Shown piece by piece: positions 11,498 through 36,394 of a stretch of DNA of 64,000 nucleotides; position 1 is the stretch's first letter; every line of letters starts with the position of its first letter. Both the position numbers and the translations under genes were made by a program. Source of the stretch: Nocardia carnea NBRC 14403 (lineage in GTDB: Bacteria > Actinomycetota > Actinomycetes > Mycobacteriales > Mycobacteriaceae); NCBI RefSeq assembly GCF_000308515.1, contig NZ_BAFV01000039.1:62001-126000 (forward strand). The letters run 5' to 3'. A model generated the notes under the pieces. The model worked only from the letters and a program-made list of their open reading frames with translations. It was not told where the DNA came from and searched no databases.

Positions 11498-11877
11498 GCC
11501 CGCGCTCCTTCGGTCGAGGACTGTGCCGGTAAGAGCGCGAAATCCGCGCTGAACGAAACCTGATACCGGTCGATGAGGCCGTCGGCGCCGATATGCATGG
11601 CGGCGACGAACCAGCCGGTGGTCACGGAATCGTTCTCGGTGACCGCACCGTGCGCGAACTGCATATCGCCGTCGACGGCTACCCGCAGCATCCGGTGTTT
11701 GCGGTTCACCTTCGGCCTGCCGCTCAGGTAGTCGAACATGGCCGCACGACCGCGGTCCTGGTTGGCTCCGGTCGGCAGGATCATCGCGAACTCGACATCC
11801 TCGGCCAGCATGGCCGTCGCATCCCGCAGTCTGCCGCTGTCGACCGTCGCGTAGTAGTCCTCGATCACGTGGGTCAT
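11494..11877 (-). CDS. SnoaL-like/NTF2-fold protein
   Basis: A 127-residue relative of the protein encoded downstream, starting IEDYYATVDSGRLRDATAML and having the same predicted fold. It is the first gene of a leftward two-gene unit. The 18-bp island operator begins at the first base of its start codon, so a bound repressor would block its initiation region directly. Possible roles are double-bond isomerisation or hydration of an island intermediate. No catalytic residues can be assigned with certainty. Confidence 0.7.
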   Translation of the reverse strand: MTHVIEDYYATVDSGRLRDATAMLAEDVEFAMILPTGANQDRGRAAMFDYLSGRPKVNRKHRMLRVAVDGDMQFAHGAVTENDSVTTGWFVAAMHIGADGLIDRYQVSFSADFALLPAQSSTEGARA

Positions 11878-11894
11878 GAAATGAACTTAGTTCA
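11877..11894. promoter_or_regulatory. Island operator site a
   Basis: TGAAATGAACTTAGTTCA is a close copy of the 18-bp palindrome TGAANTGAATTCANTTCA that recurs across this catabolic island. Its inner part TGAACT-T-AGTTCA is a perfect inverted repeat. It covers the 5' end of the leftward SnoaL pair. Confidence 0.65.
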
Positions 11895-11941
11895 GCCCAC
11901 CTCTTCTTGTCGAGAGGTTCAGCCGCTAGGGTCGGCGTTAT

Positions 11942-11959
11942 CGAATTGAACTCAACTCA
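11942..11959. promoter_or_regulatory. Island operator site b
   Basis: CGAATTGAACTCAACTCA keeps the GAANTGAA and TCA blocks of the palindrome. It ends 10 bases before the start of the acyl-CoA dehydrogenase at 11970 and its centre is 65 bases from that of site a, so the two could control the divergent pair together. Confidence 0.55.
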
Positions 11960-11969
11960 AGGGGAGATT

Positions 11970-13112
11970 ATGCCTCCGACCTCGGCAGCACTCGTCGAAC
12001 ATCCCTGGCCGGGCTCGGAACCGCCGGGATTGTCCCCCGATCCCGAACAGGTTCAGCTGCGCGAATCGCTGCGGGGATTGCTCGGAAAATACAGCGATAT
12101 CGAACAGGTCCGGGCAGCCGCGAACACCGGCCTCGGCTACTCACCGCAACTGTGGCGGACACTCGTCGACGAGATGTCGGTGACCAGCCTGGCCGCACCG
12201 GAACACCACGGTGGCCTCGGCTACGGAACGGCCGAGCTGGCGGTCGTCCTCGAAGAATGCGGACGGGCACTGATCTGCGAACCCGTCTACAGCTCGGCAG
12301 TCCTCGGCACACACGCGCTGCTGACGGCACCGGAAGCCGAAGGTAATCCACTTCCGGACGTTCTGGCCGGGAACCTCGTCGCCACGATGAGTTCGCTCGA
12401 TCCGGCCACCGACGATCTGCGGGCCACGTCGAGCCCGCACGGTTGGCGGGTCGACGGCACGGTCACCCACCTCGTCGGCGGGCGCAGCGCCGATATCGTC
12501 ATCGCCTCGGCCGCGACGGCCGGCGGCCAGAGACTGTTCGCACTGCGACCACCGAATGATGCGGTGCGCACGGACCTGCGGGTACTCGACCCCACCAGGC
12601 GACAAGCCGATCTGACCGTGCGCGACTGCCCGGCCGTGGCACTCACCGCGCCCGAGGCCACCCCGGCGGTGCGCTCCCGCCTGCGCGACCTGGCGACGCT
12701 CGCCCTCGCCTGCGAAAACACCGGAATCGTCGAACGCCTGCTGGAAATGACCGTGGAGTACGCCGGTACCCGGCACCAGTTCGGCCGGGCCATCGGGTCG
12801 TTCCAGGCGGTCAAACACCGGCTGGCCGATCTGCTGGTATCGCTGGAACGCGCGCGCTCGGCATCGCGGTATGCGGCCGCACTCTATGCCGAGGACCCCG
12901 ATTCAGCCCGCCTGGCCGTCGCGGTGGCCGGTGCGGTGTGCACCGACGCCGCCGTTCACGCGGCGGCCGAGGCCGTGCAGCTACACGGCGGAGTGGGGTT
13001 CACCTGGGAACATCCCGCGCACTCCTATTTCCGCCGGGCATTGGGAAACGAAGCGGCGCAGGGTGATGCGCGCACGCACCGCGCCCGTATCGGTGCACTG
13101 ATCGGCGTGTGA
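11970..13112 (+). CDS. Acyl-CoA dehydrogenase (FadE-like)
   Basis: A 380-residue flavoprotein of the acyl-CoA dehydrogenase superfamily. The C-terminal domain has HQFGRAIGSFQAVKHRLADL and QLHGGVGFTWEHPAHSYFRRA, typical of mycobacterial FadE proteins that often act as one half of an alpha2beta2 enzyme. It lacks the usual GT(S)EIQ...AERVLG ending, which the dehydrogenase encoded at 15570 has, so the two may be partners. The ATG at 11970 follows aagggga. It is alone in its unit, read away from the SnoaL pair, with an island operator in front. Confidence 0.85.
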   Translation: MPPTSAALVEHPWPGSEPPGLSPDPEQVQLRESLRGLLGKYSDIEQVRAAANTGLGYSPQLWRTLVDEMSVTSLAAPEHHGGLGYGTAELAVVLEECGRALICEPVYSSAVLGTHALLTAPEAEGNPLPDVLAGNLVATMSSLDPATDDLRATSSPHGWRVDGTVTHLVGGRSADIVIASAATAGGQRLFALRPPNDAVRTDLRVLDPTRRQADLTVRDCPAVALTAPEATPAVRSRLRDLATLALACENTGIVERLLEMTVEYAGTRHQFGRAIGSFQAVKHRLADLLVSLERARSASRYAAALYAEDPDSARLAVAVAGAVCTDAAVHAAAEAVQLHGGVGFTWEHPAHSYFRRALGNEAAQGDARTHRARIGALIGV

Positions 13113-13170: not shown

Positions 13171-13188
13171 TGAAGTGAATCCAGTTCA
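13171..13188. promoter_or_regulatory. Island operator site c
   Basis: TGAAGTGAATCCAGTTCA. It is identical base for base to site g, 17.9 kb away, although the surrounding sequence differs. It lies 25 bases before the first gene of the ten-gene operon. Confidence 0.7.
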
Positions 13189-13212
13189 GGAACTGATCCG
13201 AAAGAGGCTCCG

Positions 13213-14001
13213 ATGATCGACACCGACCACATCGTCCTGGAAAAAGACGGCGATATCGCACGCGTCTGGCTCAACCGCCCGCACAAGAAGAACGCAGTCA
13301 CGGTGGAACTGCTGCACCGGCTCGACGAGATCATCGTCGAGGTCGACAACGATCCCGAACTGAAAGTGCTGGTACTGCGGGGTCGCAACAACACCTTCTG
13401 CTCCGGTTTCGACCTCGACGAACTGCGCGAGAACTACGTCGGCAAGACCAACGCCATGGACGTCGCGGTGCTCTCCGCGAAGGTCTGCGACCGGCTCTAC
13501 TCGATGAACACCCCTTCGGTCGCGGTACTCGAAGGCTATGTCACCGCGGGCGGGTTCGAGCTCATGATCTCCTGCGATTTCGCGGTCGCCGCCGAGGACG
13601 CCAAGATCGGCGACTTCCACATCCGGCGGGCCCTCTTCGGCGGCGCCGGCCCGATCTACCGGCTCCCCCGGATGATCGGTATCCGCAAAACCAAGGAACT
13701 GATGCTCACCGGCAAGCTGCTGAACGGCCGTGAAGCCGCCGACTTCGATCTGATCAATGCCTCCGCCCCCGCCGCGGAACTGGATCAGCTCGTCGCCGAT
13801 TTCATCGCCCCGATCGTGGACAAGAGCCCGTTCGCCATGAAACTCACCAAGATGACCATCGATCGCGGTCTGGATGCCGATATCCAGTCGCTGATGGTGA
13901 TGGAACACCTCGCCGTCGGCAATGCCCTGCAGTCCGAGGACGCGCGCGAAGGCGTGAACGCCTTCCTGGAGAAGCGGGAACCGAAGTGGGTCGGGCGCTG
14001 A
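13213..14001 (+). CDS. Enoyl-CoA hydratase/isomerase family protein
   Basis: A 262-residue crotonase-fold protein. The oxyanion-hole region GRNNTFCSGFDLDEL and GYVTAGGFELMISCDF are clear. Aligned without gaps to classical hydratase, the first catalytic Glu (in FELM) is kept, but the second (in the usual PEILLG) is His here, in DFHIRRALFGG. Hydration may therefore be altered, and isomerase, hydrolase or retro-Claisen activity is possible. It is the first gene of the large operon behind operator c, with 35 bases to the next gene. An RBS-like aaagagg precedes the ATG. Confidence 0.85.
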   Translation: MIDTDHIVLEKDGDIARVWLNRPHKKNAVTVELLHRLDEIIVEVDNDPELKVLVLRGRNNTFCSGFDLDELRENYVGKTNAMDVAVLSAKVCDRLYSMNTPSVAVLEGYVTAGGFELMISCDFAVAAEDAKIGDFHIRRALFGGAGPIYRLPRMIGIRKTKELMLTGKLLNGREAADFDLINASAPAAELDQLVADFIAPIVDKSPFAMKLTKMTIDRGLDADIQSLMVMEHLAVGNALQSEDAREGVNAFLEKREPKWVGR

Positions 14002-14036: not shown

Positions 14037-14411
14037 ATGGGTGAGCAGGTGAAACCGGTGCTGGAAGGCAGTAGGTGCGCGGGATGCGGCACGGTGGGTT
14101 ATCCGGCGAGCACGAACTGCGCGCGCTGCGCGGCACCGACCGCCGAACCGCTGGCGCTGAGCACCGAGGGCGTGGTGTGGGCGCATACCGTGCAACGGTT
14201 CGCACCGAAATCGCCGCCGTATGTCGTTCCCGCCGAAGGCTTCACGCCCTACGCGGTCGGCTATGTCGAACTTCCCGAGGGAATCCGGGTCGAGGCGATC
14301 CTCGACTGCGACGATTTCGCCGATCTGGACCGGGCACCGGTACACCTCGTCGCGGTAGCGCCGGTGCCGCGGTTCGCCACCACAACCCGTCAGCAGAGTG
14401 AGGTCCGGTGA
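14037..14411 (+). CDS. DUF35 OB-fold/zinc-ribbon protein, thiolase partner
   Basis: A 124-residue protein. An N-terminal zinc ribbon with CAGC and CARC (residues about 14-32) is followed by an OB-fold ending near RFATTTR. DUF35 proteins act as obligate partners of thiolase-fold enzymes, for example ChsH2-DUF35 with Ltp2 in steroid side-chain cleavage. The next gene, a thiolase-fold protein, starts inside its stop codon (GTGA overlap at 14408-14411), which fits a stoichiometric complex. The start at 14037 follows aaggga. Confidence 0.85.
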   Translation: MGEQVKPVLEGSRCAGCGTVGYPASTNCARCAAPTAEPLALSTEGVVWAHTVQRFAPKSPPYVVPAEGFTPYAVGYVELPEGIRVEAILDCDDFADLDRAPVHLVAVAPVPRFATTTRQQSEVR

Positions 14412-15559
14412 CCCAGCAGGTTTCGATCATCGGCAGCGGGCTGTCCCGCTTCGGCCGGCAGCCCGGGGTCACCGGAAGGCAACTCGCTGTCCACGCGATC
14501 GGTAATGCCCTCGCCGACGCCGGGCTGACCTGGCCCGATATCCAGGTTGCCTACGGCGGCAGCGACGGGTCCGGATTGGCCGATACCCTGGTGGCCGAAC
14601 TCGGCTTCACCGGCATCCCGTTCACCAATGTCAAGAACGGCTGCGCCACGGGCGGTAGCGCATTGTTCTCCGCGGTCAACGCGGTCCGCTCCGGCGCCGC
14701 GGAGATCGCCCTGGCCGTCGGTTTCGACAAACACCCGCGGGGCGCGTTCGATCCCGCCCCCGCCGATTGGGGCCTGCCCGAGGGGTACGGTTCGGCCGGG
14801 CTCATGGTGACAACCCAGTTCTTCGGCGCCAAGATCGGCCGCTATATGCGCGAGCACGGTATCTCCGCGGCGACGCTGGCCATGGTCGCCGAGAAGGCCT
14901 ACCGCAACGGCAGCCGCAATCCGAATGCCTGGCGGCGGGATCCGATCTCGGCGGAGCAGATCCTCTCGGCCGAGATGGTCAACGATCCGCTCACCAAGTT
15001 CATGTTCTGCTCTCCCGGTGAGGGCGGTGCGGCCGTGGTGGTCGCGAGTGCGGCCGCGGTCCGCCGTCTCGGCGGCCGGCCGGTCCGGCTGCGGGCCATC
15101 AGCCATCGCACCCGTCGATTCGGCTCCTTCGAGGTGTTCAGTCCCGCTGTCCAGGGCACCGGTGAACCGACCAGTGTCAGCGCGGATGCCGCCTCGGCGG
15201 CGTTCGAACAGGCCGGTATCGGACCGGCGGAGATCGGTGTCGCGCAACTCCAGGACACCGAGAGCGGCGCGGAGATCATGCATATGGCCGAATGCGGGTT
15301 CTGCGTTCCCGGGGCACAGGAGGAGATGATCGCGGCGGGCGCCACCGAGATCGACGGCCGGCTGCCGATCAATACCGACGGCGGGTGTATCGCCAACGGC
15401 GAACCCATCGGCGCCTCGGGGCTGCGGCAGGTGCACGAGATCGTGACCCAGCTGCGCGGCGAAGCCGGCGATCGACAGGTGCCCGGCGCGCCGAAAACCG
15501 GATTCACCCATGTGTACGGCGCCCCCGGGATCAGCGCCTGCACGGTTCTGTCGGTCTGA
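14408..15559 (+). CDS. Thiolase-fold protein (lipid-transfer/Ltp-type), probable retro-aldolase or ketothiolase with DUF35
   Basis: A 383-residue thiolase superfamily protein. The nucleophile region NGCATGGSAL keeps a Cys. The usual GHP motif reads NGEPIGASG, so the catalytic His is Glu, and the distal CxG loop reads YGAPGIS, so the second Cys is missing. Loss of these residues resembles the Ltp2 group, which performs retro-aldol rather than thiolytic cleavage with a DUF35 partner. Such a partner is encoded immediately upstream with a 4-base overlap. I infer C-C bond cleavage of a CoA thioester; the exact chemistry is open. Confidence 0.8.
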   Translation: MTQQVSIIGSGLSRFGRQPGVTGRQLAVHAIGNALADAGLTWPDIQVAYGGSDGSGLADTLVAELGFTGIPFTNVKNGCATGGSALFSAVNAVRSGAAEIALAVGFDKHPRGAFDPAPADWGLPEGYGSAGLMVTTQFFGAKIGRYMREHGISAATLAMVAEKAYRNGSRNPNAWRRDPISAEQILSAEMVNDPLTKFMFCSPGEGGAAVVVASAAAVRRLGGRPVRLRAISHRTRRFGSFEVFSPAVQGTGEPTSVSADAASAAFEQAGIGPAEIGVAQLQDTESGAEIMHMAECGFCVPGAQEEMIAAGATEIDGRLPINTDGGCIANGEPIGASGLRQVHEIVTQLRGEAGDRQVPGAPKTGFTHVYGAPGISACTVLSV

Positions 15560-15569
15560 GGTGGACACA

Positions 15570-16778
15570 GTGACAACACAGCAGCTTCCCGACCTCACCG
15601 AATTCACCGAGCAGGCCCGCGCCTGGCTCGCCGATACGGCGGCACCACGGACGGCATCCACCTGGGGTGCGGGGGACGATTCGGTGGCGGTTTTCGAGAA
15701 CTGGACCGCCGCGGAAGAACGCCGGCACACCGATCGCATCCGCGCCTACGAACAGGCCAAATTCGATGCGGGCTGGGGTGCGCTCACCTGGCCCGCCGAA
15801 TACGGCGGCCGGGGACTGCCGATGTCCTACACGCTGGCCTTCCGCCGCACCGAGGAAGAGTTCGAAATACCGCGGCGGACCGAGATGTTCTCGGTCACTC
15901 AGCAATTGGTGGCACCGACCATCGAGCAGTGGGGCACCGACGAGCAGCGGGAACGGTATGTGCGGGCGATGCTGCGTACCGATCTCATCGCGTGCCAGCT
16001 CTTCTCCGAAACCGAGGCCGGATCGGATCTGGCCGCGGTACGCACCAAGGCCACCCACAACGCCGACGGCACCTGGACCCTCGACGGGCACAAGGTGTGG
16101 ACCTCCGGGGCCCGGGTTGCCGACCTCGGGGTCGCGGTCTGCCGGACCGATTCCGCGGCACCGAAGCACGCGGGACTCACCGTCTTCCTGGTGCCGATGG
16201 ATGCACCGGGCGTCACCGTCCGGCCGATCCGGCAGATGACCGGCGGTACTTCGTTCAACGAGGTCTATCTCGACGGTGTGGTGCTCGGCGACGGGCTACG
16301 GCTCGGGCCGGTCGGAAAGGGCTGGCCGGTGGCGCTCACCGTGCTCGCCGCGGAACGGCTCGACGGCGCCGGGCTGGGGCTGGCGAATGCCGATCAGGCG
16401 GTGGAGCTGGCCCGTCACCTGGGCCGCGAACTGACGGAACTCGAACGCGACCGGGTCGCGGATCTGGTGACCCGCAGTTATGTGCAGCGGATCGCGGGAA
16501 TGCGGGTGGCCGCGGCGGTGGTCGCGGGCCGCGATCCCGGACCGGAGGCGTCGGTCGGCAAATTGCTCGCCACCGACACCATGGCCCGGACCTCCGAGGT
16601 CGTGCGGTTACTGCTCGGCCGGGAACTCACCGCGGATTCCGGACGCTGGGGTACTTACGCCTGGACCGAACACGTGCTGGGCGCGCCCGGGTACCGGATC
16701 GCGGGCGGGACCGACGAGATCCAGCACAACATCATCGCCGAGCGGGTGCTCGGCCTACCCAAGGAGCCGCGGCCATGA
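15570..16778 (+). CDS. Acyl-CoA dehydrogenase
   Basis: A 402-residue dehydrogenase. It contains CQLFSETEAGSDLAAVRTKA (FAD contact) and ends with the standard GGTDEIQHNIIAERVLGLP. It belongs to the long-N-terminus FadE group common in mycobacterial sterol and branched-acid pathways. The start is set at the GTG at 15570, seven bases after tgaggtgg; a GTG at 15561 is nine bases earlier. Its stop overlaps the next start (ATGA, 16775). It may pair with the dehydrogenase encoded at 11970. Confidence 0.88.
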   Translation: MTTQQLPDLTEFTEQARAWLADTAAPRTASTWGAGDDSVAVFENWTAAEERRHTDRIRAYEQAKFDAGWGALTWPAEYGGRGLPMSYTLAFRRTEEEFEIPRRTEMFSVTQQLVAPTIEQWGTDEQRERYVRAMLRTDLIACQLFSETEAGSDLAAVRTKATHNADGTWTLDGHKVWTSGARVADLGVAVCRTDSAAPKHAGLTVFLVPMDAPGVTVRPIRQMTGGTSFNEVYLDGVVLGDGLRLGPVGKGWPVALTVLAAERLDGAGLGLANADQAVELARHLGRELTELERDRVADLVTRSYVQRIAGMRVAAAVVAGRDPGPEASVGKLLATDTMARTSEVVRLLLGRELTADSGRWGTYAWTEHVLGAPGYRIAGGTDEIQHNIIAERVLGLPKEPRP

Positions 16779-17725
16779 CGCTGGAACAGCGTGTGCGTGA
16801 CCGGTTGCGCACCGACCTGGATATCGAGGTCACCGGATTCGAACCACTGCCCGGCGGACATTCGGGCCTCACCTACCGGGTAGCCACCACCGGCCCGGAG
16901 TTGGTGGCGAAGGCGGTGCCCGAGGGCCGTAAGCCGGTCGGCCGCCACGATATGCTGCGGCAGGCGCGGGTGATGCGCGCGCTGGCCCATACCGATGTGC
17001 CGGTGCCACGGATCGTGGCCGTCGACGAGGCCGAACCCGCTTGGTTCGCCATGGAATTCGTGACCGGGGAATCGCTCGAACCGGTCCTGGACGACCCCGC
17101 CGTCGAACCCGGCCTGGCGGCCGCAAGAATGCGGCGGGCCGCCGAGGTGCTGCCGCGGCTGCACGCGATCGACCCGGGCTCGGTGCCGGGCGTGGAAGCC
17201 GCACTGACACCCGCCGATGAACTCGCCCGCTGGGCGCGGACACTGGGCGCGGTGCCGCCCGAGCTGGTCGCGGGCGGTGACCGGTTGCTCGGCCTGCTGG
17301 GCAAGCGGATCCCCGAACCCGTGCCCCCCACGCTCGTCCACGGTGACTACCGGCTCGGCAATATCATTGCCGCCGGTACGGAACCGGTCGCGCTGATCGA
17401 CTGGGAGATCTGGAGCGCCGGTGATCCGCGCGTGGAACTCGGCTGGTTCCTGGTATTCGCCGACGGCACGAATTTCCCGGAGGTGGGCCGCACCGTACCG
17501 GGCCTGCCCGATCCCGCCGAACTCGTGGACCGCTACCGCGCGGGTGGCCCCGAACTGTCCGACCTGCCGTGGTTCGACGCGCTCGGACGGCTCAAGATGG
17601 CCGCCATCATGGGCCACAATCTGCGACGGCACCGAGAAGGCCGGCACCACGATCCGGATCAGGAAAAGCTGCCCGCCACCATCAATCGCCTCATCGAGAC
17701 CGGAACCGCGCTCCTCGCCGGTTGA
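16775..17725 (+). CDS. APH-fold phosphotransferase (ACAD10/11 or LvaA-like acyl-CoA kinase)
   Basis: A 316-residue aminoglycoside-phosphotransferase-fold kinase with the Brenner motif HGDYRLGN (about residue 188) and the metal motif DWEIW. Members encoded beside acyl-CoA dehydrogenases include LvaA of Pseudomonas, which phosphorylates 4-hydroxyvaleryl-CoA, and the N-terminal kinase domain of ACAD11. The next gene encodes an ACAD11-like dehydrogenase, so the same two-step logic (phosphorylate the gamma-hydroxyl, then eliminate) is likely. It is translationally coupled to the gene before it. A drug-resistance role is unlikely in this setting. Confidence 0.82.
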   Translation: MTLEQRVRDRLRTDLDIEVTGFEPLPGGHSGLTYRVATTGPELVAKAVPEGRKPVGRHDMLRQARVMRALAHTDVPVPRIVAVDEAEPAWFAMEFVTGESLEPVLDDPAVEPGLAAARMRRAAEVLPRLHAIDPGSVPGVEAALTPADELARWARTLGAVPPELVAGGDRLLGLLGKRIPEPVPPTLVHGDYRLGNIIAAGTEPVALIDWEIWSAGDPRVELGWFLVFADGTNFPEVGRTVPGLPDPAELVDRYRAGGPELSDLPWFDALGRLKMAAIMGHNLRRHREGRHHDPDQEKLPATINRLIETGTALLAG

Positions 17726-17753
17726 GGTCCTCCCCCGATTCAGGAGCCGTATC

Positions 17754-18956
17754 GTGGATTTCTCCTACTCCCCCCGCACTCGAGAGCTGCTCGACCGGCT
17801 CGGACAGTTCATGGAACAGCACGTCTACCCCGCCGAACGGGTGTACGACGAACAGATCGCCGCCGCGGACAATCCGCACGTTCAACCGCCGGTCATGCGC
17901 GAACTGCAAGCCGAGGCCCGGCGGCAGGGGCTGTGGAATCTGTTCATGACCCACGACGGCCTCGGTGCCGGGCTCACCAATCTCGAATACGCCCCGCTGG
18001 CCGAGATGGTGGGCCGTTCGATCATCGGCAACGAGACGATCAACTGTTCGGCGCCCGATACCGGCAATATGGAAATCCTGGCCATGTTCGGCACCGAACA
18101 GCAGCAGGACCGGTGGCTGAAACCGCTGCTGGACTGCGAGATCCGCTCGGCGTTCGCCATGACCGAACCCGCCGTCGCCAGCTCCGACGCCACCAATATC
18201 ACCTCCACCATCCGCCGCGACGGGGACCACTATGTCCTCAACGGCCGCAAATGGTACATCTCCGGAATCCTGGATCCGGACTGCAAACTGATCATCTTCA
18301 TGGGCAAATCCGATCCGGACGCCCCGGCGTACCGCCGGCAGAGCATGATCCTGGTGCCCGCCGACGCGCCGGGTATCGAGGTGCTGCGGGATCTGCCGAT
18401 GTTCGGATTCCACGACCGGCTGGGTCACGGCGAGGTGCAGTTCACCGATGTGCGTGTCCCGGCAGAGAACATGCTGGGCGCCGAAGGCGACGGTTTTGCG
18501 ATCGCCCAGGGTCGGCTCGGGCCCGGCCGGATGCATTACGCCATGCGTGCCATCGGAATGGCCGAACGCGCACTGGAACTCATGTGCCGGCGGTCGCTGG
18601 AACGGACCGCGTTCGGCGGACCGCTGGCCGACCGCGGGGTCGTACGCGAATGGATCGCGCGCAGCCGGATCGAAATCGATCAGATCCGGCTGCAGACCCT
18701 GCAGGCCTCCTGGCTGATGGATACCAAGGGCAACGCGGCGGCGCGTTCGGACGTCGCGGCCATCAAGGTCTCGGCGATGGAGGTCGCACACAAGGTGGTC
18801 GACCGCGCGGTCCAGACCTTCGGCGCGGCGGGGGTCAGCAACGACACCGTCCTGGCCCGGATGCACGCCATCACCCGCGCCCTGCAGATCGCCGACGGCC
18901 CCAACGAAGTACATCTGCGCACCATCGCGCGTCTCGAGGTGAAGAAGTACCGATGA
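17754..18956 (+). CDS. ACAD10/ACAD11-like acyl-CoA dehydrogenase
   Basis: A 400-residue protein of the ACAD11 branch, recognised by SAFAMTEPAVASSDATNI, NGRKWYISGILDPDCKL and the C-terminal IADGPNEVHLRTIARLE. In the 4-hydroxyacid route such enzymes act on the phosphorylated acyl-CoA made by an APH-type kinase, which is encoded 28 bases upstream. The GTG at 17754 follows caggag. Its stop overlaps the next start by four bases. Together with that kinase it makes a split version of the animal fusion protein. Confidence 0.85.
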   Translation: MDFSYSPRTRELLDRLGQFMEQHVYPAERVYDEQIAAADNPHVQPPVMRELQAEARRQGLWNLFMTHDGLGAGLTNLEYAPLAEMVGRSIIGNETINCSAPDTGNMEILAMFGTEQQQDRWLKPLLDCEIRSAFAMTEPAVASSDATNITSTIRRDGDHYVLNGRKWYISGILDPDCKLIIFMGKSDPDAPAYRRQSMILVPADAPGIEVLRDLPMFGFHDRLGHGEVQFTDVRVPAENMLGAEGDGFAIAQGRLGPGRMHYAMRAIGMAERALELMCRRSLERTAFGGPLADRGVVREWIARSRIEIDQIRLQTLQASWLMDTKGNAAARSDVAAIKVSAMEVAHKVVDRAVQTFGAAGVSNDTVLARMHAITRALQIADGPNEVHLRTIARLEVKKYR

Positions 18957-23164: not shown

Positions 23165-23788
23165 ATGACCGTTGACACGGGAGCCCGGCGCGAAAGCCCG
23201 CGGTCGAAACGCAGCAGCATCCTCACGGCTGCCATCGAGCAGTTCGGGCGAATCGGTTACGAACATACGAAATGGGCCTCCATCGCCGACGAGGTCGGTA
23301 TCGGCCAGACCGCTCTCTACCACTACTTCGAGTCCAAGGCCCACTGCCTGCTCACGATCATGCGCCTGGAACTGGCCGATTCGGTGGATCGTTTCGTCTC
23401 GGCAACCGAGAACGAGACAGATCCCGAGAAGGCCCTGCGCGCCGCGGTGGCCGCCGCCCTGCGCGCGGAGCCGATCGACGCACTGCAACGCCGCATTCTG
23501 CAGAACCATATGGATCTGCTGGCCCAGCCGCGCCAATCGGAGAAAGAGGAAGCCGAACGGCTGCGGTCGCGGGAACTGGTCCAGGAGATCGAACAGAACT
23601 GGACCGAGCTGATCGAGCGTGGTATCGAGGCGGGCGTCTTCACCGGCGGCGATCCCAAGATCCTCGGCCGGATGGTGCTGGCCGTGGTGATCAGCGTCTG
23701 GCGCTGGTATCGCCCGGACGGCACGCTGACCTTGGCCGAGATCACCGAAACCGTCACCGATACCGCGGTACGGATGGTGCGCGCCTGA
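23165..23788 (+). CDS. TetR-family regulator, proposed repressor of the catabolic island
   Basis: A 207-residue TetR protein. The N-terminal helix-turn-helix reads ILTAAIEQFGRIGYEHTKWA, then VGIGQTALYHYFESKAHCL. The C-terminal helical domain would bind a ligand, likely an acyl-CoA or the free substrate. Operator d precedes it, and six more copies of the same palindrome precede the other units of the island, so it is the natural candidate for their shared repressor. The binding specificity is inferred, not shown. It is the only regulator gene between 11 and 36 kb. Confidence 0.88.
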   Translation: MTVDTGARRESPRSKRSSILTAAIEQFGRIGYEHTKWASIADEVGIGQTALYHYFESKAHCLLTIMRLELADSVDRFVSATENETDPEKALRAAVAAALRAEPIDALQRRILQNHMDLLAQPRQSEKEEAERLRSRELVQEIEQNWTELIERGIEAGVFTGGDPKILGRMVLAVVISVWRWYRPDGTLTLAEITETVTDTAVRMVRA

Positions 23789-29109: not shown

Positions 29110-29892
29110 TCATGCCTTCTGGGTCGATAGTTTCGGAGTGCGGACGCCGGCGGCGGTTCCGCCGTCGACGAGAAGATCGGTTCCGGTGACATAGCTGCTC
29201 TCGGCGCCGGCCAGAAAAGCGATCACCGAGGCCACTTCGGCGGGGGCGCCGCGGCGCTGCATCGGAATACTGCGGATATATGCCGCTACGTCGTCGGCGG
29301 CGAAACCGGGGGCCGCGGTGATCTCGGTGGTGATACTGCCGGGGCATACCGAATTCACCCGGATGCCCTTTTCGGCCAGTTCCAGTGCGGCGACCTTGGT
29401 CAGCGCGCGCACACCGAATTTGGCGGCGCCGTACGCGCCGAGTTCGGCGGTGGCGAGCACACCGCGTAGCGAGGAGATATTCACGACCGACCCGCCCTCG
29501 GTCATCGCCGCGGCCGCGGTTCGCAATCCGAGGAATGTCCCGACCAGATGCTGGTCGATCATCCGGCGGAACTCGTCGAGCGTGGTCTGCGCCAACGTCG
29601 CTTTCATAGCAGTCCCAGCACTGTTGACCAGCACATTCATCCGATGCCCGGACTGCCGCATTGCGTCGGTCACCGCGTACCAGGCGGTTTCGTCGGTGAC
29701 GTCGAGGTGACGGTAGTGGGCGCGTGGGCCCAGCGCCCGCGCCCGTTCCCGGCCGGCGATATCGTCGATATCGGTGAGGTAGACCGTCGCGCCCTTCGCG
29801 GCGAACAGTTCGGCGGTTGCCCCGCCTATCCCCCCGGATGCCCCGGTCACCAGTACGTGGGTGCCGTGCCAGGGCTCGGCCGTATCGTCCAT
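29110..29892 (-). CDS. Short-chain dehydrogenase/reductase
   Basis: A 260-residue SDR with GASGGIGG (about residue 17), NSAG near residue 94, ISSLRGV and YGAAK. It lies inside a transport operon between the binding protein and ATPase genes, so import and first oxidation or reduction are probably expressed together. The start at 29892 follows aaggatagg. The ending LLVDGG is normal; a 14-residue tail follows. Confidence 0.85.
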   Translation of the reverse strand: MDDTAEPWHGTHVLVTGASGGIGGATAELFAAKGATVYLTDIDDIAGRERARALGPRAHYRHLDVTDETAWYAVTDAMRQSGHRMNVLVNSAGTAMKATLAQTTLDEFRRMIDQHLVGTFLGLRTAAAAMTEGGSVVNISSLRGVLATAELGAYGAAKFGVRALTKVAALELAEKGIRVNSVCPGSITTEITAAPGFAADDVAAYIRSIPMQRRGAPAEVASVIAFLAGAESSYVTGTDLLVDGGTAAGVRTPKLSTQKA

Positions 29893-29932: not shown

Positions 29933-30970
29933 TCAGCTCTGGAAACGCCGGGCCCATTCCTGGGAGTACTGCGCAACCTTGTCGGGTGTCAGGTCACGGG
30001 TGTCGGGCACGGCGATATCCTGCGCCCGCACAACGGCACCCGGGATATCCGGTAGCGCCGCGGCGTACCCGTCGTTGAGCGCTGTCTGCCCCTCGCGAGT
30101 CGCCAGGAAATCGACGAGCACCTGAGCGGCGTTCGGATGCGGCGCAACACTCACCACGTGGCTGTACCAGGGTGTTCCCCACGGCTGCGACGGAAGGGAC
30201 CAGCCGACCGGAGCACCCGCAGCCACTTCGGTCACCAGCGGCTGCACCGACGGGGTCACCGCGATTTCACCCGAGGTGAGGGCCTGTGCGATACCGAGTG
30301 CGCTCGGATATATCCGAGGTTTCAACTCGGCCATCCGCTCCCAGTAGTCGGCGCCGTAGGTGTCGGCGTAATACCGATAGAGATCGACATACGACGCGAT
30401 ACCGGTGGGATTGACGATGCCGATCTTGCCGGTGTACTTCGGGTCGAGGATATCGCGCGGTGAGGTCAGGCCGGCGGGCACTGCTTCGGTGTTCCAGCCC
30501 AGGGCGAACACGGCCGCGCTGCTGAGCGCGAATCGGTTCTCCAGCACGCTGGTCTCCGGTCGATATTCTGGTGCCCGAATATTCGGACCGATCAGTTCGG
30601 TCGAATAGTTTCCCGATTGGGCGGCATTGGTGATCCATGTGGCGTCGGTGAGCATATGGACGTCCGCGGTACCGCGCCCGGTCCGGTTCTCGGTTTCCAC
30701 GCGGGGATTGATATCGGCGTCGGTGCCCCGGACGAATTCGAGTTCGATGCGGGGATACGCCGTTTCGAAGGCCATTTCCAGCTGCTCGAGATTGGCCGGT
30801 TTCTGGCTCGAGTAGAGCAGGACGCTGCCTTCGTTCTCGGCGGCGGCGACCACTTCGGCCCAGGCTCCCGAGACCGGGGCCGTGGTTCCGGGGCTCGCGC
30901 CACAGGCGGTGAGGAAGGAGGTGACAGCGAGGGCCGCGACGGCGGCCGTGGCCTGGAACAGCAACTTCAT
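29933..30970 (-). CDS. Type-2 extracellular solute-binding lipoprotein (Fbp-like)
   Basis: A 345-residue binding protein. A signal peptide ends in the lipobox LTAC at about residue 22. The mature part starts with GSVLLYSSQK, the hallmark of the ferric/aminophosphonate-like family, and holds the ligand region SYVDLYRYYADTYG. It is a paralogue of the protein encoded at 33142: both share PVSG-W-E-VAAA near the N-terminus. It is first in the leftward transport operon behind operator f. A GTG at 30985 is the alternative start; ribosome signals are weak for both. Confidence 0.85.
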   Translation of the reverse strand: MKLLFQATAAVAALAVTSFLTACGASPGTTAPVSGAWAEVVAAAENEGSVLLYSSQKPANLEQLEMAFETAYPRIELEFVRGTDADINPRVETENRTGRGTADVHMLTDATWITNAAQSGNYSTELIGPNIRAPEYRPETSVLENRFALSSAAVFALGWNTEAVPAGLTSPRDILDPKYTGKIGIVNPTGIASYVDLYRYYADTYGADYWERMAELKPRIYPSALGIAQALTSGEIAVTPSVQPLVTEVAAGAPVGWSLPSQPWGTPWYSHVVSVAPHPNAAQVLVDFLATREGQTALNDGYAAALPDIPGAVVRAQDIAVPDTRDLTPDKVAQYSQEWARRFQS

Positions 30971-30997: not shown

Positions 30998-31015
30998 TGA
31001 ACTGATGTCAGTTTG
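30998..31015. promoter_or_regulatory. Island operator site f
   Basis: TGAACTGATGTCAGTTTG has well-kept left (TGAACTGA) and inner right (TCAGTT) arms with a TG centre. It lies 28 bases before the leftward binding-protein start and 49 bases from site g, so the two flank the divergent promoters. Confidence 0.55.
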
Positions 31016-31063: not shown

Positions 31064-31081
31064 TGAAGTGAATCCAGTTCA
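31064..31081. promoter_or_regulatory. Island operator site g
   Basis: TGAAGTGAATCCAGTTCA is an exact copy of site c. Its last base is the first base of the aaggagg ribosome site of the next gene. Confidence 0.7.
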
Positions 31082-31092: not shown

Positions 31093-33036
31093 TTGGTCTC
31101 CCCTCGCCTGTCGACCCCGCTGCGGATAGGCGGCCTCGAGCTGCGTAATCGCCTGGTCGCGACCGCGCACGGCTCCGGCGTAGTCAGCGCCGGAGCCGCT
31201 CAGCCAGGCGACGACGACTACTGGCGACGCTGCGCGGCCGGAGGTGCGGCCATGGTGATCGCGGGCGGAACGGTGGTCGGATCGGACTCCGGCAACCGGA
31301 CAGGAAACATCACCGACGCCTCGCTACCCGATGCCGTCCCGGGTCTGCGCCGGCGCGCACGGGCGATCGCCGAAGGCGGCGCGATACCGGCCTGCCAGCT
31401 CGTCCATCTGGGACGCGAAACCTTGGGCGCCGAGATCTGGGAACATCCGATCGCGCCGTCGGCGGTCCGGTCACCGCGCGAACCGGTCCGCGCACGGGTA
31501 CTGTCGGACAGCGATATCGACCGGGTGATCACCGATTTCGTCCGCAGTTCCCGCCACGCCGCCGAGGCAGGTTTCGCCGCCGTGGAACTGCACGCCGCCC
31601 ACGGATATCTGCTGGCGCAATTCCTCTCCCCGATCACGAATCTCCGGGCCGATGCCACGACTTCCGCCGGCCGGGTCGCAATCCTGCACCGGATACACGC
31701 CGCGATCACCGAATCCTGCCCCGGACTCGTTGTCGGCGTGCGACTTTCGCTCGACGGCGCCGAGGAAGCGGGACTGGATAGCGATGGCCTCTGCGAACTG
31801 CTACCGCTGCTGGACATGTTCGGGTATGTCAATGTCACGGCGGGCGTGCGCACCACCTACGTCCGCGATATGGCCACCGCCGAGCCGCCGCTGCTCCCGC
31901 TACTGGACCGGCTGCGCGCGGCGACCACCCGCCCGCTGCTGGTATCCCAGGCGTTCCGGTCGCGGCCGGAGATCGAAGGCGCCCTCGCCGCCGGCGCGGA
32001 CCTGGTCGGGATGGCGCGACCCTTCATCGCCGACCCGGATATCGCGGCGAAACTCCTGCGTGGCGAGGACTCCCGGATACGGCCCTGTGTGTCCTGTAAC
32101 GAAGATTGCCGTTCGTTCACCCCCGTATTGCTGTGCACGGTGAACCCGGTCTTGGCGCCGCCCGGCCACTCGGCCCGCCCGGCGCGGCCCATGCGCTTCG
32201 GCCGGCCGCGCGACCGAGCGGGCCGGGTCGCCGTCGTCGGCTCCGGACCGGCGGGCCTGGAAGCCGCCCTCCGGCTGACACCGTCGCACGATGTCACACT
32301 CTTCGACGCGAAGTTTCGGATCGGCGGCCAGCTGCGCACTGCCGCGCAGGCACCGAACCGGGCGGGCTGGATGGCACTGTTGCGCTACTACCAGGACAAC
32401 CTGGACGGTGTCCGGACGGAACTGGGACACCGGGTGGCTCCGGCGGACCTCGCCGATTTCGACGAGGTCATCGTGGCGACCGGCGCCACCGAAACCGAAA
32501 CTCCCCGCGCCGTGACGACCACCTCGATCCTGACCGATCCGCGGCAGATCCGGCCCGGTAACCACGTGGTAGTGGTCGACGACGGGTTCGGTTACTGGCC
32601 CGCCCTCGGCGCCGTGGAAGCGGCGCTGACCGTAGGTGCCTGCCGGGTCACCGTGCTCGTCCCCGGCCCGGCGATCGCGGCGGGGGTACCGGCGGAAAGC
32701 CGGGTGCAATTGCTGCGCCGGCTGGCGGGCCGCCCGGTGGATTTCGTCGTCCAGGCCGCGTCGGTCGAGGTGCACGACGGCGGACCGGGCACCGTCGTGG
32801 GCTACCGCAACGCGTTGTCGGGTGAGTTGCGCAAGCTGGCCTGCGATCGAGTGGTCGTCACGGGTGAACGGATCGCCACCGACTGGCGGCCCTTTCCGGA
32901 GCGACTGCCGCAGACAAGGGTGCAGGTCATCGGTGACGCCCTCGTCCCCCGGCGGGTGTCCCACGCCGTCGCCGAAGGTTACGCGGCCGCGGAAACGATT
33001 CTCGGCAGCGTGGGAGTGCCCGTACAAGTCGGGTGA
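31093..33036 (+). CDS. OYE-type NADH:flavin oxidoreductase with FAD/NAD domain (2,4-dienoyl-CoA reductase/BaiCD-like)
   Basis: A 647-residue multidomain flavoenzyme. Residues 1-360 form an FMN-binding TIM barrel (ELHAAHGYLLAQFLSP). A 4Fe-4S motif follows (CVSCNEDC with a later Cys in LLCTVNP), then an FAD domain (VVGSGPAGLEAALRL) and a second nucleotide-binding fold. Homologues reduce C=C bonds conjugated to a carbonyl, as in 2,4-dienoyl-CoA reductase, or dehydrogenate bile-acid enones. The start is TTG at 31093, backed by aaggagg five bases upstream. No ATG or GTG fits. It is first in the rightward operon behind operator g. Confidence 0.87.
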   Translation: MVSPRLSTPLRIGGLELRNRLVATAHGSGVVSAGAAQPGDDDYWRRCAAGGAAMVIAGGTVVGSDSGNRTGNITDASLPDAVPGLRRRARAIAEGGAIPACQLVHLGRETLGAEIWEHPIAPSAVRSPREPVRARVLSDSDIDRVITDFVRSSRHAAEAGFAAVELHAAHGYLLAQFLSPITNLRADATTSAGRVAILHRIHAAITESCPGLVVGVRLSLDGAEEAGLDSDGLCELLPLLDMFGYVNVTAGVRTTYVRDMATAEPPLLPLLDRLRAATTRPLLVSQAFRSRPEIEGALAAGADLVGMARPFIADPDIAAKLLRGEDSRIRPCVSCNEDCRSFTPVLLCTVNPVLAPPGHSARPARPMRFGRPRDRAGRVAVVGSGPAGLEAALRLTPSHDVTLFDAKFRIGGQLRTAAQAPNRAGWMALLRYYQDNLDGVRTELGHRVAPADLADFDEVIVATGATETETPRAVTTTSILTDPRQIRPGNHVVVVDDGFGYWPALGAVEAALTVGACRVTVLVPGPAIAAGVPAESRVQLLRRLAGRPVDFVVQAASVEVHDGGPGTVVGYRNALSGELRKLACDRVVVTGERIATDWRPFPERLPQTRVQVIGDALVPRRVSHAVAEGYAAAETILGSVGVPVQVG

Positions 33037-33141: not shown

Positions 33142-34185
33142 ATGCGGAAACCCCTTCGAACGAGGGTTCTGGGGACGGTAGCGGTGCTGGGGGCGATCAC
33201 CCTGACTCTCGCCGGATGCGGTGGTTCCACCGCGATATCCCGGCCGGTCTCCGGATCGTGGGACGAACTGGTGGCGGCGGCGAACGAAGAAGGCTCCGTC
33301 ACGCTCTACTCGACACAAGCCCAACCGGTGCTCGCGGAGCTCGAACGAGATTTCGAAAAGGCCTATCCCCGTATCGATCTGACCGTGGTTCGAGGCGTGG
33401 ACTCCGACCTGCTCTTCCGTGTGGATATCGAAGCCCGCACGGGCAAGGGCGCCGGGGATGTCGCGGTGATCACCGATGCGGCCTGGATGCAGGCGGCCGC
33501 AGATACGGACAAGGCGGTGGAGGTGATCGGTCCCGCGTTCGACGCGCCCGAGTACCGGCGCGCCGACAGCATGGTCGACGGGAAGTTCTTCCTCGAGGGC
33601 GCGGTGGTCCTCGGCTTCGGCTGGAACACCACCGCCTATCCCCAAGGCATCCGGACGGCCCAGGATCTGCTCGACCCGGCACTGAAAGGCAAGGTCGGGA
33701 TCGTCACGCCGGCCACCTCGCCGACCTACATCGACTACTACGACCACATCGAGGAGCACTACGGCGGCCGCGAATTCCTCGACCGACTGGCACAGAATGC
33801 GCCGCGTATCTACCCGAGCTCGCAACCACTCGGGCAGGCACTGGCTTCGGGCGAAATCGTGGCCGCGCTGATGTGCAACCCGATGCTGCCGGAACAGGCC
33901 GCCGGCGCGCCCGTCGGCTGGACCGCCGGACCCGCGCTCTGGGGCGCCCGCTGGTACGGCCTGGCGCTGGGTTCGGCCCCCCACCCCAACGCGGCGCAGG
34001 TACTCGCGGATTTCATGGTGAGCCGGCCGGGCCAGCAGGCGACATCACCCGGATACGGATCTGTCCTGCCCGATATCGAGGGTGCGCTGGCAGTGGCGCA
34101 GGACATTCCCGACCAGAACCTCGAGGTGACCATCGGCGAAGGCGCCGAAAAGTACCGCAACGACTGGGAAAACATCTTCCAGTGA
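33142..34185 (+). CDS. Type-2 extracellular solute-binding lipoprotein (Fbp-like)
   Basis: A 347-residue lipoprotein with lipobox LAGC (about residue 26) and the family opening GSVTLYSTQA. It is clearly related to the protein encoded at 29933, but the ligand-cleft region differs (TYIDYYDHIEEHYGG instead of SYVDLYRYYADTYGA). It has no ATPase or permease of its own in this operon, so it probably shares the leftward ABC genes. Two receptors for one transporter would widen the substrate range. The ATG at 33142 follows aggatgagg. Confidence 0.85.
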   Translation: MRKPLRTRVLGTVAVLGAITLTLAGCGGSTAISRPVSGSWDELVAAANEEGSVTLYSTQAQPVLAELERDFEKAYPRIDLTVVRGVDSDLLFRVDIEARTGKGAGDVAVITDAAWMQAAADTDKAVEVIGPAFDAPEYRRADSMVDGKFFLEGAVVLGFGWNTTAYPQGIRTAQDLLDPALKGKVGIVTPATSPTYIDYYDHIEEHYGGREFLDRLAQNAPRIYPSSQPLGQALASGEIVAALMCNPMLPEQAAGAPVGWTAGPALWGARWYGLALGSAPHPNAAQVLADFMVSRPGQQATSPGYGSVLPDIEGALAVAQDIPDQNLEVTIGEGAEKYRNDWENIFQ

Positions 34186-34220
34186 GCACCGAGCCCACCA
34201 CCACACAAGAGGAGACAACC

Positions 34221-35009
34221 GTGCCGGAACAGCAGTTCGACGGGAAGGTGGCGCTCGTTACCGGCGCCGGATCGGGAATCGGTGCCGCCACCGCGCGGCT
34301 GCTCGCGCAGCGCGGGGCGACGGCCGTGTACCTCTGCGATATCGACGGGCGGGCGGCGGCCGCGGTGGCGGCCGATATCGTCGGCGGCGTCCCGGTCGAA
34401 CTGGATGTGGCCGTTTCGGCTCAGGTCGATCAGGCCTTCGCCGCAGCTCTGACCGAGCACGGCCGGGTCGATATCGTGGTCCACGCGGCCGGTGTCGACG
34501 ATCCGCGCAGTAAACAGCGCATCTACGAGGCCGCCGAACAGAACCGGCCGCCGGAAGTACTGGCCCATCTCGAGGACACCGACTGGCGGCGGATCCTGTC
34601 CATCAACCTGGACGGCACATTCCATGTCTTGCGCGCCGCGGTCCGCGCGATGCAGGACACCGGCGGGGGCGCCATCGTCACCGTGGGTTCGTCCGCGGCG
34701 TTCGACACCCTGGCCGGCTATCCGCACTACGCGGCATCCAAGTCCGGTGTGCACGCGCTCAGCCAGTCGGTGGCGAAAGAGGTGGCCCATCTCGGGATCC
34801 GGGTGAACACCGTCGCGCCGGGCCCGGTCGATACGGGGATGGCCCAGCGCACGCCGCCGCATCTGCGCGCGGCCATGTCCGAAGGCACCACCCGCGGTTA
34901 CGCCACCGCCGAGGAACTGGCCGACAACATCCTGTATCTCGCCGCACCGTCCGCCGCCAATGTCGTGGGCGCGGTGCTGTTGAGCAACGGCGGCCGGTTC
35001 ACGGTCTGA
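34221..35009 (+). CDS. Short-chain dehydrogenase/reductase
   Basis: A 262-residue SDR: GAGSGIG (about residue 16), HAAG in place of NNAG, VGSSAA, and YAASK as the catalytic pair. The start is set at the GTG at 34221 because agaggaga lies six bases upstream. A GTG at 34182 that overlaps the binding-protein stop would add 13 unconserved residues. The final GGRF lacks the usual VDGG Asp. It is followed 29 bases later by the FAD dehydrogenase gene. Confidence 0.83.
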   Translation: MPEQQFDGKVALVTGAGSGIGAATARLLAQRGATAVYLCDIDGRAAAAVAADIVGGVPVELDVAVSAQVDQAFAAALTEHGRVDIVVHAAGVDDPRSKQRIYEAAEQNRPPEVLAHLEDTDWRRILSINLDGTFHVLRAAVRAMQDTGGGAIVTVGSSAAFDTLAGYPHYAASKSGVHALSQSVAKEVAHLGIRVNTVAPGPVDTGMAQRTPPHLRAAMSEGTTRGYATAEELADNILYLAAPSAANVVGAVLLSNGGRFTV

Positions 35010-35038
35010 ATCACCGGATCAGCAACAAGGGAGCAAGA

Positions 35039-36394
35039 ATGCAGAGGATCGAAACCGATGTCCTGGTGATCGGCGCGGGGATGGCCGGCCTCACCGCCGC
35101 GGCCCGCTCGCTCGACCGCGGGGCTTCGGTCGTCGTGATCGAGCAGGCCGATACCGTCGGCGGCTCGGCGCGCTTTGCCGGATACGCCTGGACCGCACCC
35201 GACCGGGCGGTGATGGACGAGATCAACCCGAACGGCGACCCGGTGCTGCGCAACGCACTCGTGGACGGATTCGCCGACGGTATCGCATGGATCCGAGCGC
35301 TCGGCGTGCACTGCGCCGATCCGGTTCCGATCCTGCGCTACGGCCGCGGCCACCAGTTCGACACCAATCAGTACCTCGACGAATGCCGGCGTCGGGTAAG
35401 TGCCGGCGGGCAACTGTTCACCGGCACGGAAACTCTGGCCCTGCACACCGCAGACGGTGCGGTAACCGGTGCCCGAGTACGCAGGCCGGACGGCACCGAA
35501 CTCGAGATACACAGTGCCGCCGTAATTCTCGCTACCGGCGGATTCCAGGCCGACAGCGCACTCGTCGCCGAGCACATCCATCCCCGCGCCGCCGGAATAC
35601 AGGTGCGGGCCAACCCGGTGAGCGCGGGAGCCGGTCTGCGCCTGGCCGAAAGCGTGGGCGCCGCGACCGGGAATACATGCTCCGGTTTCTACGGACACCT
35701 GGTGCCGACGCAGGTACCGTTCCGCGATCCCGCCGATTTCGTGGCATTGTCGCTGTACTACAGCGAGCACGCACTGCTGTTCAACCTCGACAACCAGCGC
35801 TTCACCGATGAGACCCAGGGTGATCACCTCACCGCGATGCACCTACTCGACCAGCCGGAATCCCGCGGTTTGCTCGTCGCCGACGAACGGGTCTACCAGG
35901 AATGGGTCCTCGGCAGCTATGTCGAGGGGGCGATCGCGGTGGACAAGTTCGAGCTCACCCAGCGCCGCGGTGGCCGTTGCGGGGTCGCGGAGACCCTGGA
36001 GGATTTCGCCTATCTGCCGCCGGAGTGGGGTTACGACGGGGCGGCCGTCGCCGAACAGATCAGGCAGGTCAACGCCGCCGGGGCCGCGGTCCGGCCCACC
36101 AGGACCCACGACGACCAGCCCCTGGACAAGGGCCCGTACTACCTCATCGAAACCTGCCCCGCACTGACCTTCCCGTTCCACGGCATCCGCATCGACGCCA
36201 CCGCACGGGTCCGGTCCGCGACCGGCGGCACGATTGCCGGGCTTTTCGCCGCGGGATCCGATATCGGGGGCCTCTACGACTACGCCTATGCCGGTGGGAT
36301 CGCGCCCGCGCTCGTCTTCGGTCTGGCGGCCGCCGAGGCCGCGGCCGGGGACCGGCCGGCCGGTTCGAACGTTACCGCGGCAAACATCGGATAG
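35039..36394 (+). CDS. FAD-binding dehydrogenase (fumarate reductase/3-ketosteroid dehydrogenase family)
   Basis: A 451-residue flavoprotein of the succinate dehydrogenase/fumarate reductase flavoprotein superfamily. It has an N-terminal Rossmann motif (VIGAGMAGLTAAARS), a GG doublet in TVGGSARFAG, ILATGGFQ in the middle and the C-terminal AGSDIGGLYDYAYAGGIAPA. Relatives include 3-ketosteroid dehydrogenases and tricarballylate dehydrogenase, which introduce or reduce C=C bonds next to a carbonyl. It closes the operon, with a strong hairpin right after it. The substrate is unknown. Confidence 0.85.
   Translation: MQRIETDVLVIGAGMAGLTAAARSLDRGASVVVIEQADTVGGSARFAGYAWTAPDRAVMDEINPNGDPVLRNALVDGFADGIAWIRALGVHCADPVPILRYGRGHQFDTNQYLDECRRRVSAGGQLFTGTETLALHTADGAVTGARVRRPDGTELEIHSAAVILATGGFQADSALVAEHIHPRAAGIQVRANPVSAGAGLRLAESVGAATGNTCSGFYGHLVPTQVPFRDPADFVALSLYYSEHALLFNLDNQRFTDETQGDHLTAMHLLDQPESRGLLVADERVYQEWVLGSYVEGAIAVDKFELTQRRGGRCGVAETLEDFAYLPPEWGYDGAAVAEQIRQVNAAGAAVRPTRTHDDQPLDKGPYYLIETCPALTFPFHGIRIDATARVRSATGGTIAGLFAAGSDIGGLYDYAYAGGIAPALVFGLAAAEAAAGDRPAGSNVTAANIG

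Follow-up and report, generated by a model that had tools for sequence, protein, structure and literature searches.

The question raised by a stretch of 64,000 nucleotides from Nocardia carnea NBRC 14403 (contig NZ_BAFV01000039.1, positions 62,001 to 126,000; hereafter the window, in whose numbering positions are given) is whether several copies of an 18-bp palindrome, scattered over a catabolic island, are operators of one regulator, and if so of which one. A first-pass annotation had counted seven copies and assigned them to a single TetR-type regulon. The comparisons reported here point the same way: the seven palindromes are very probably the operators of the TetR-family regulator encoded at 23165-23788, which would act as one repressor for the island. 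From these sequence comparisons we infer both that the protein binds the sites and that it represses rather than activates. All seven copies are present where they were first noticed, and the proposed proximity to start codons (within about 60 bases) holds, the distances running from a 1-base overlap to a gap of 57 bp:

11877-11894: operator 1, TGAAATGAACTTAGTTCA; shares one base with the ATG of the SnoaL gene (minus strand); contains TAAGTT, -10-like on that strand
11942-11959: operator 2, CGAATTGAACTCAACTCA; ATG of the ACAD1 gene 10 bp further on
13171-13188: operator 3, TGAAGTGAATCCAGTTCA; adjoins TTGACG-N17-TACAAC; hydratase start 24 bp away
23090-23107: operator 4, TGACTCGAATTCATCTCA; within the 3' end of the ligase gene; TAGAGT (-10-like, TetR gene) about 10 bp downstream; nearest start codon after a 57 bp gap
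23902-23919: operator 5, CGAACAGAATTCAGTTAG; weaker copy; EthD gene 8 bp downstream; no promoter element assigned
30998-31015: operator 6, TGAACTGATGTCAGTTTG; weaker copy; immediately after TTGACA-N17-TAGTTT of the minus-strand transporter unit; nearest start codon after a 27 bp gap
31064-31081: operator 7, TGAAGTGAATCCAGTTCA; its first base is the last base of TAATAT (-10-like); OYE (old yellow enzyme) gene 11 bp on

The operator consensus is TGAACTGAATTCAGTTCA (18 bp), and the copies at 13171 and 31064 are the same over all 18 bp, as had been observed. When the window was scanned with the first-pass pattern at up to three mismatches, five of the seven sites were recovered (11877, 11942, 13171, 23090 and 31064) and nothing else, in line with the earlier remark that no copy had been noticed at the window's other operons; 0.04 matches were expected by chance, and none of 100 shuffles reached five. 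The copies at 23902 and 30998 carry four mismatches each to that pattern (the latter counted by eye). In a leave-one-out matrix scan of the window, in which each matrix was built without the site under test and without copies identical to it, every operator was top-ranked outside the other sites, at 16.1-21.8 bits versus 9.8-12.4 bits for the best match elsewhere.

Clustering of matrix matches at island promoters, by which the first-pass annotation had proposed to judge its claim, was seen in the window and, as described below, at orthologue loci; the own genome (7,492,940 bases) was searched by patterns. The degenerate pattern YGAMNHGAWBYYANYTHR matched seven times on the forward strand and never on the reverse, always within the island, and its reversed control gave 1 and 0 matches. 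This pattern was fitted to the seven sites, and shows that nothing else resembles them rather than that they were predicted. With one mismatch allowed, its matches rose little above the reversed control (31/25 versus 29/20), and no members outside the island are claimed. The first-pass pattern at up to three mismatches matched eight places (control 1), five in the island and three elsewhere: in the gap between another TetR gene and a desaturase gene, before a gene for a globin/NAD-binding protein, and within a peptidase gene. These three were excluded from the regulon. At L145:4885-6894 a TetR gene other than the island's shares with a fatty-acid desaturase gene a similar, weaker palindrome (17.5 bits), perhaps that regulator's own operator. 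A search of the own genome with a sequence model of the 18-bp sites returned only the two identical sites among the matches listed (E about 2); such sites are too short for sensitivity, and the result counts neither way.

Beyond this genome, the sites accompany the TetR orthologue across genera. In a set of 60 genomes (the own and others, 35 of them congeners), six others carry an orthologue at 77-99% identity, and the next full-length matches lie at about 30%. A larger set of loci was assembled from the best 80 of 118 TetR orthologues in named genomes (55-99% identity; 1,605,708 bases), counted unthinned with near-duplicates included, among them several loci of N. carnea and N. flavorosea and a large number from Streptomyces. 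Of 11 core island genes, counted at 40% identity or more, 63 of the 80 loci carried eight or more and 13 carried none. Both island genes and sites are present at the R. jostii and R. opacus loci L084 and L090. A matrix trained on the window alone found 229 sites of at least 18 bits across the 80 loci, versus 1.0 in dinucleotide shuffles; 75 loci had at least one such site and 67 at least two. As a control, 23 more distant TetR genes (26-34% identity) had no site of at least 15 bits in their short loci of 3.0-3.6 kb (81,304 bases). One locus labelled Kitasatospora arboriphila (L076) has island identities to the window like those of Williamsia loci L064 and L066, and is possibly a mislabelled or contaminated record.

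Site and regulator also occur together in the family. Exact TGAANTGAATYCANTTCA was found in 16 of 151 family genomes (the own included), every one of which carries the TetR (20 carriers in all, defined by a match at E 1e-60 or better), with site and TetR on the same contig 7.8-11.6 kb apart; none of the 131 family genomes without TetR has it. The hypergeometric value of this co-occurrence, 3e-18, is not a true probability, the genomes being related. Exact sites within the 60-genome set lie in six carriers (G000, G003, G013, G019, G029, G030) and in G014, which is 78% complete and has island genes on its site-bearing contig (L142). Carrier G020 lacks a neighbouring island and any site at two or fewer mismatches; its only site is one of 15.1 bits before TetR. 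N. harenae has TetR without the island or the adjoining ligase gene, yet with a 15.1-bit site upstream.

Judged by strand and spacing, the regulon would comprise seven transcription units with 26 genes at 10069-36394. It is larger than the range first proposed (11877-36394), since the unit behind the operator at 11877 extends left to 10069. Gene identities were taken from Pfam, NCBIfam and PDB comparisons (ACAD, acyl-CoA dehydrogenase; SDR, SBP and MBL are labels used below):

10069-11091, minus: ADH_N_2 / zinc-binding-dehydrogenase-type oxidoreductase; last gene of the left unit, 5' start uncertain
11126-11497, minus: SnoaL_b, conserved partner of the SnoaL protein; no Pfam match, named by position
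11494-11877, minus: SnoaL_a, SnoaL_2 protein; first gene of the left unit
11970-13112, plus: ACAD1, acyl-CoA dehydrogenase; closest NCBIfam models IpdE2 and PimD, both under cut-off
13213-14001, plus: enoyl-CoA hydratase; first gene of the main unit
14037-14411, plus: OB-fold partner protein (ChsH2 C-terminal type)
14408-15559, plus: SCP2-thiolase-like protein; nucleophile Cys present, QDTE at the HDCF place, GEP at the GHP place
15561-16778, plus: ACAD2, acyl-CoA dehydrogenase; closest NCBIfam model PimC, under cut-off
16775-17725, plus: APH-family kinase, related to the ACAD11 kinase domain
17754-18956, plus: ACAD3, flavoenzyme of the ACAD10/11-LvaC subgroup
18953-19708, plus: SDR1
19721-20491, plus: SDR2
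20491-21531, plus: zinc-type alcohol dehydrogenase (ZnADH)
21603-23120, plus: acyl-CoA ligase (AMP-binding)
23165-23788, plus: TetR-family regulator, proposed repressor (Pfam TetR_N and TetR_C_24, orthologues, alignment, model)
23928-24263, plus: EthD-domain protein
24260-25279, plus: metallo-beta-lactamase-fold hydrolase (MBL)
25437-26201, minus: SDR3; last gene of the transporter unit
26248-27945, minus: ABC transporter permease, two permease stretches
27945-29108, minus: ABC transporter ATPase, PhnT/UgpC/PotA-like; best 25 NCBIfam matches all under cut-off
29110-29892, minus: SDR4
29933-30970, minus: substrate-binding protein 1 (SBP1); first gene of the transporter unit
31093-33036, plus: OYE, old-yellow-enzyme / 2,4-dienoyl-CoA-reductase-type flavoenzyme; first gene of the right unit
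33142-34185, plus: substrate-binding protein 2 (SBP2)
34221-35009, plus: SDR5
35039-36394, plus: FAD_binding_2 enzyme (fumarate-reductase / ketosteroid-dehydrogenase superfamily)

At the orthologue loci the sites stand mainly before unit starts. Counts were made for sites of at least 16 bits near the start of homologues with at least 40% identity, a nearly complete 5' end and a full flank. A site precedes the hydratase gene in 24/24 loci, OYE in 16/16, SBP1 in 20/26 and SnoaL_a in 2/3. Nine internal genes have no site at their start: OB-fold protein (0/60), thiolase-like protein (0/63), ACAD2 (0/64), kinase (0/57), ACAD3 (0/65), SDR1 (0/43), SDR2 (0/70), MBL (0/62) and permease (0/38). The remaining counts of this kind are 0/23 for SnoaL_b, 0/7 for SBP2 and 2/7 for ADH_N_2; the three genes of the left unit remain together in congeners (L039, L043, L046). 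At L050, from genome G019, no homologue of SBP2 or SDR5 was seen between OYE and FAD_binding_2, and the latter has its own site (24.8 bits); thus the sites follow the genes when gene order changes. The operators are conserved over genera although their flanks change.

A single regulon is further suggested by sites outside the island in two congeners, G030 and G019, whose additional sites elsewhere in the genome (L143, L144) flank a homologue of SBP1 at 61-62% identity. In these remote units (L143:2312-7135, L144:3318-8098) the homologue has matrix-scoring sites to its left and right, and beyond each of them lies a gene for a DUF1254/DUF1214 protein, an arrangement that may tie the DUF1254/DUF1214 pair to the pathway.

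The candidate binder is, as first noted, the one TetR gene among the sites (23165), with a site before it (23090). By its sequence the encoded protein is a TetR-family regulator, with a TetR_N helix-turn-helix (45.3 bits) and an all-helical ligand domain (TetR_C_24, 68.2 bits); its predicted structure has ten helices (pLDDT 91.7). The nearest folds of the model are TetR proteins including PfmR, DarR, KstR2, AibR and FadR, among them, by entry title, an AibR with isovaleryl-CoA and operator DNA and a T. thermophilus FadR with dodecyl-CoA. KstR2 is also near in sequence (E 3.8e-11). When the window protein was aligned with 22 of the 80 orthologues, conservation was highest in the DNA-binding region, and the recognition-helix region VGIGQTALYHYFESKAHC is invariant down to 56% identity save for one position in one of the 23 sequences, as would be expected with a constant operator. 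Orthologues from N. carnea and N. flavorosea are 97-99% identical to the window TetR. At the exception, the Rhodococcus ruber locus L091, which has neither a 16-bit site nor close island homologues, TetR is altered at positions that are nearly constant elsewhere.

How such a protein might act can be read from the promoters, whose elements were identified by eye with the help of promoter alignments (some rows of which have misplaced starts, e.g., L118). Elements resembling a -10 overlap or abut operators 1, 3, 6 and 7, and a -35-like element with the usual spacing is present at operators 3 and 6. Operator 4 covers the expected -35 region of the TetR gene, whose TAGAGT lies at 23118. The tally is four of seven on or against a -10-like element, one over an expected -35 region and two less clear. 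Between operators 1 and 2, positions 11904-11914 (TTCTTGTCGAG) are the same in five of five aligned sequences and may contain the -35 elements of divergent promoters. Since operators 1, 3, 6 and 7 lie on or just after a -10-like element, a bound dimer would hinder the polymerase. In the mechanism proposed, the ligand-free TetR dimer would sit on or beside the core promoters of the seven units and block RNA polymerase, until a pathway intermediate released it, the likeliest candidate being an acyl-CoA formed by the island ligase. Such a ligand is suggested by the acyl-CoA-bound near folds AibR and FadR and by the ligase within the regulon. Release would switch on the 26 genes, the regulator included: an ABC importer with two binding proteins, a CoA ligase, two acyl-CoA dehydrogenases, a hydratase, the thiolase-like/OB-fold pair, the kinase/ACAD11-like pair and several reductases.

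Several observations weigh against this picture of one repressor. Operators 2, 4 and 5 are not on any -10-like element, and operator 2 starts 9 bp past its best one (TAGGGT, 11927). The units are presumed operons with boundaries set by spacing only, and window-internal genes are sometimes preceded by a site at the orthologue loci: ZnADH in 2/41, ligase in 2/64, ATPase in 3/36, SDR4 in 2/30, SDR3 in 6/64, SDR5 in 1/9 and FAD_binding_2 in 5/14; the one arrangement of this kind that was inspected is that of L050. Conversely, EthD is preceded by a site in 37/65 and ACAD1 in 5/17. No 16-bit site at all was found at 3 of the 80 orthologue loci, and 44 of the 80 orthologues have no site of at least 16 bits before their own gene, so that autoregulation is not general. 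Four of the 20 family carriers (G118, G173, G177, G207) do not have the exact site. At two or fewer mismatches 31 of the 60 genomes match, many congeners without TetR among them, and thus only close matches are informative. Finally, TetR and island travel together, so that their co-occurrence with the site supports TetR as the binder and does not prove it.

This last point is what a first alternative builds on, in which there is one regulon whose sites are read by another regulator encoded elsewhere, TetR being a passenger. Site and TetR being inherited together, any regulator that all carriers share could play this part. This explanation is nevertheless unlikely: no other regulator was recognised among the annotated island open reading frames (not every frame was scanned), the exact site is missing from all 131 TetR-free family genomes, and it is the DNA-binding region of TetR that is best kept. 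The two departures from the common pattern speak in the same direction, N. harenae having kept TetR and its upstream site when it has no island, and R. ruber L091, without site or close island homologues, having a TetR changed at otherwise near-constant positions.

If the TetR protein is the binder, its sign may still differ, as an activator, or as a repressor at some promoters that is needed at others. Some TetR proteins activate, e.g., FasR, and the geometry is not uniform, with operator 2 after and operator 4 upstream of the -10-like element and none assigned for operator 5; but at operators 1, 3, 6 and 7, which overlap or directly follow such an element, bound protein should block polymerase, and either of these roles appears unlikely. 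That the repeats arose by chance or from base composition, or are promoter elements shared without any regulator, is hardly credible. Two of the seven copies are four mismatches away from the first-pass consensus and three off-island places match it within three, yet the window yielded five matches against 0.04 expected, all seven matches of the fitted pattern fall in the island, and the sites are kept over genera while flanks change and are missing at the 23 other TetR loci. We regard this explanation as already refuted by the orthologue-locus scans, the site-before-gene counts and the co-occurrence in the family.

Repression by the island's own TetR would also make the system one of a familiar kind, and by analogy the regulon appears to work like those of KstR2 and BkaR, with a different operator and different genes. 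KstR2, which controls cholesterol catabolism in mycobacteria and Rhodococcus, is likewise a repressor of the TetR family; its few palindromic operators lie close to the regulator gene and ahead of divergently transcribed catabolic operons, at 22-82 bp for five of the six listed starts (PMC3068626). Its operator, however, is AnCAAGnnCTTGnT, of 14 bp (PMC3068626), compared with the 18 bp of TGAACTGAATTCAGTTCA, and the two proteins are 23-24% identical in a fold alignment. The seven island sites do not fit the KstR2 operator, and membership of that regulon was rejected. BkaR of mycobacteria, an autoregulatory TetR repressor of branched-chain keto-acid genes, also has a conserved palindrome before nearby genes, but its operator is GTTA(N)T(N4)A(N)TAAC and its genes are others (PMC3920632). 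As in these two systems, a conserved palindrome stands before the island's units, and it stands before the regulator itself in 36 of the 80 loci. The TetR proteins of acyl-CoA metabolism FadR, PfmR and AibR resemble the window TetR as near folds. Bacillus FadR (NCBIfam NF053878) was rejected as an identification, with 46.3 bits, far under the 200-bit cut-off, and the operator given for T. thermophilus FadR is TTRNACYNRGTNYAA (PMC5597230) rather than the island's TGAACTGAATTCAGTTCA. Operator strings were also searched in open-access paper texts, where the matches listed appeared unrelated by title and abstract start; likewise, no paper on the operator or the cluster was found among the matches listed in the open-access literature, which mostly leaves out subscription journals.

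The 26 genes seem, from their sequences, to import and degrade an acid. Within the main unit, ACAD3 has as its best PDB match 4hr3, a putative dehydrogenase (2e-128), with the ACAD11 chains 8v3u/8v3v (about 1e-123) and human ACAD11 2wbi (1e-117) close to it and the next other family only at 1e-42. The kinase at 16775-17725 matches the ACAD11 kinase domain at 3.3e-12, behind two closer APH-type chains. Adjacent genes (16775-18956) thus place an ACAD10/11-subgroup ACAD beside an APH-type kinase, as in LvaA/LvaC and ACAD10/ACAD11; the comparison was made via ACAD11. Pairs of these types are reported to phosphorylate 4-hydroxyacyl-CoA and then to remove the phosphate to give 2-enoyl-CoA (PMC12440821, PMC11342911), and in ACAD11 phosphate is bound by R626, H634 and R637, with D753 being catalytic (PMC12440821). 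Both catalytic Asp and the equivalents of Arg626 and Arg637 are kept in the window pair. In contrast to ACAD11, the island ACAD3 has Tyr for His634 and the island kinase Gln for the helix-C Glu.

Among the 65 locus copies with 45% identity or more, 62 have the Tyr, and the three that keep His belong to second, non-island pairs at Dietzia loci (L097, L112, L113). Gln is present in all 64 kinases of at least 45% identity, and Glu in all 10 more distant kinases from the same loci. The second pairs of the Dietzia loci keep both Glu and His. At L127, L128 and L130 the ACAD (38-39% identical) keeps His, yet the kinases fall in the Gln group, so the two changes are not fully linked. Given these changes, the LvaA/LvaC reaction is not assured for the island pair, and a 4-hydroxy (or 4-keto) acyl-CoA intermediate is likely, not assured.

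SCP2-type thiolases usually carry the nucleophile Cys together with HDCF and GHP motifs. The HDCF and GHP letters are visible in the aligned 6hsj. Among thiolase-like copies of at least 55% identity (two more distant copies were set apart), Cys is present in 63/63, with QDTE at the HDCF place in 63/63 and GEP at the GHP place in 64/64. The protein at 14408-15559 was rejected as a standard SCP2-type thiolase, as HDCF and GHP are not matched, and as an Ltp2-type aldolase, whose motif, given as YDHF (PMC12329534), is not matched either. Abscisic or jasmonic acid as the substrate is a guess, with nothing in its favour among the matches listed in the open-access literature.

It is possible, though we would not call it probable, that TetR and operator together delimit a hitherto undescribed catabolic route, conserved as a unit from Nocardia to Streptomyces, in which the variant kinase/ACAD11-type pair and the thiolase-fold enzyme without HDCF and GHP do chemistry unlike that of their relatives, on a substrate taken up by the polyamine/phosphonate-type ABC importer. 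The operator indicates which of the numerous paralogous dehydrogenases and reductases are probably partners in this nameless pathway, and extends it in some species to genes outside the island, while the island promoters may be usable for a substrate search by reporter screening. The kinase/ACAD pair and the thiolase-like enzyme are the most interesting leads, and the pathway is the reason for interest in a regulon of familiar kind; should the variant pair and the unusual thiolase-like enzyme prove active, bacterial acyl-CoA metabolism would gain new reactions.

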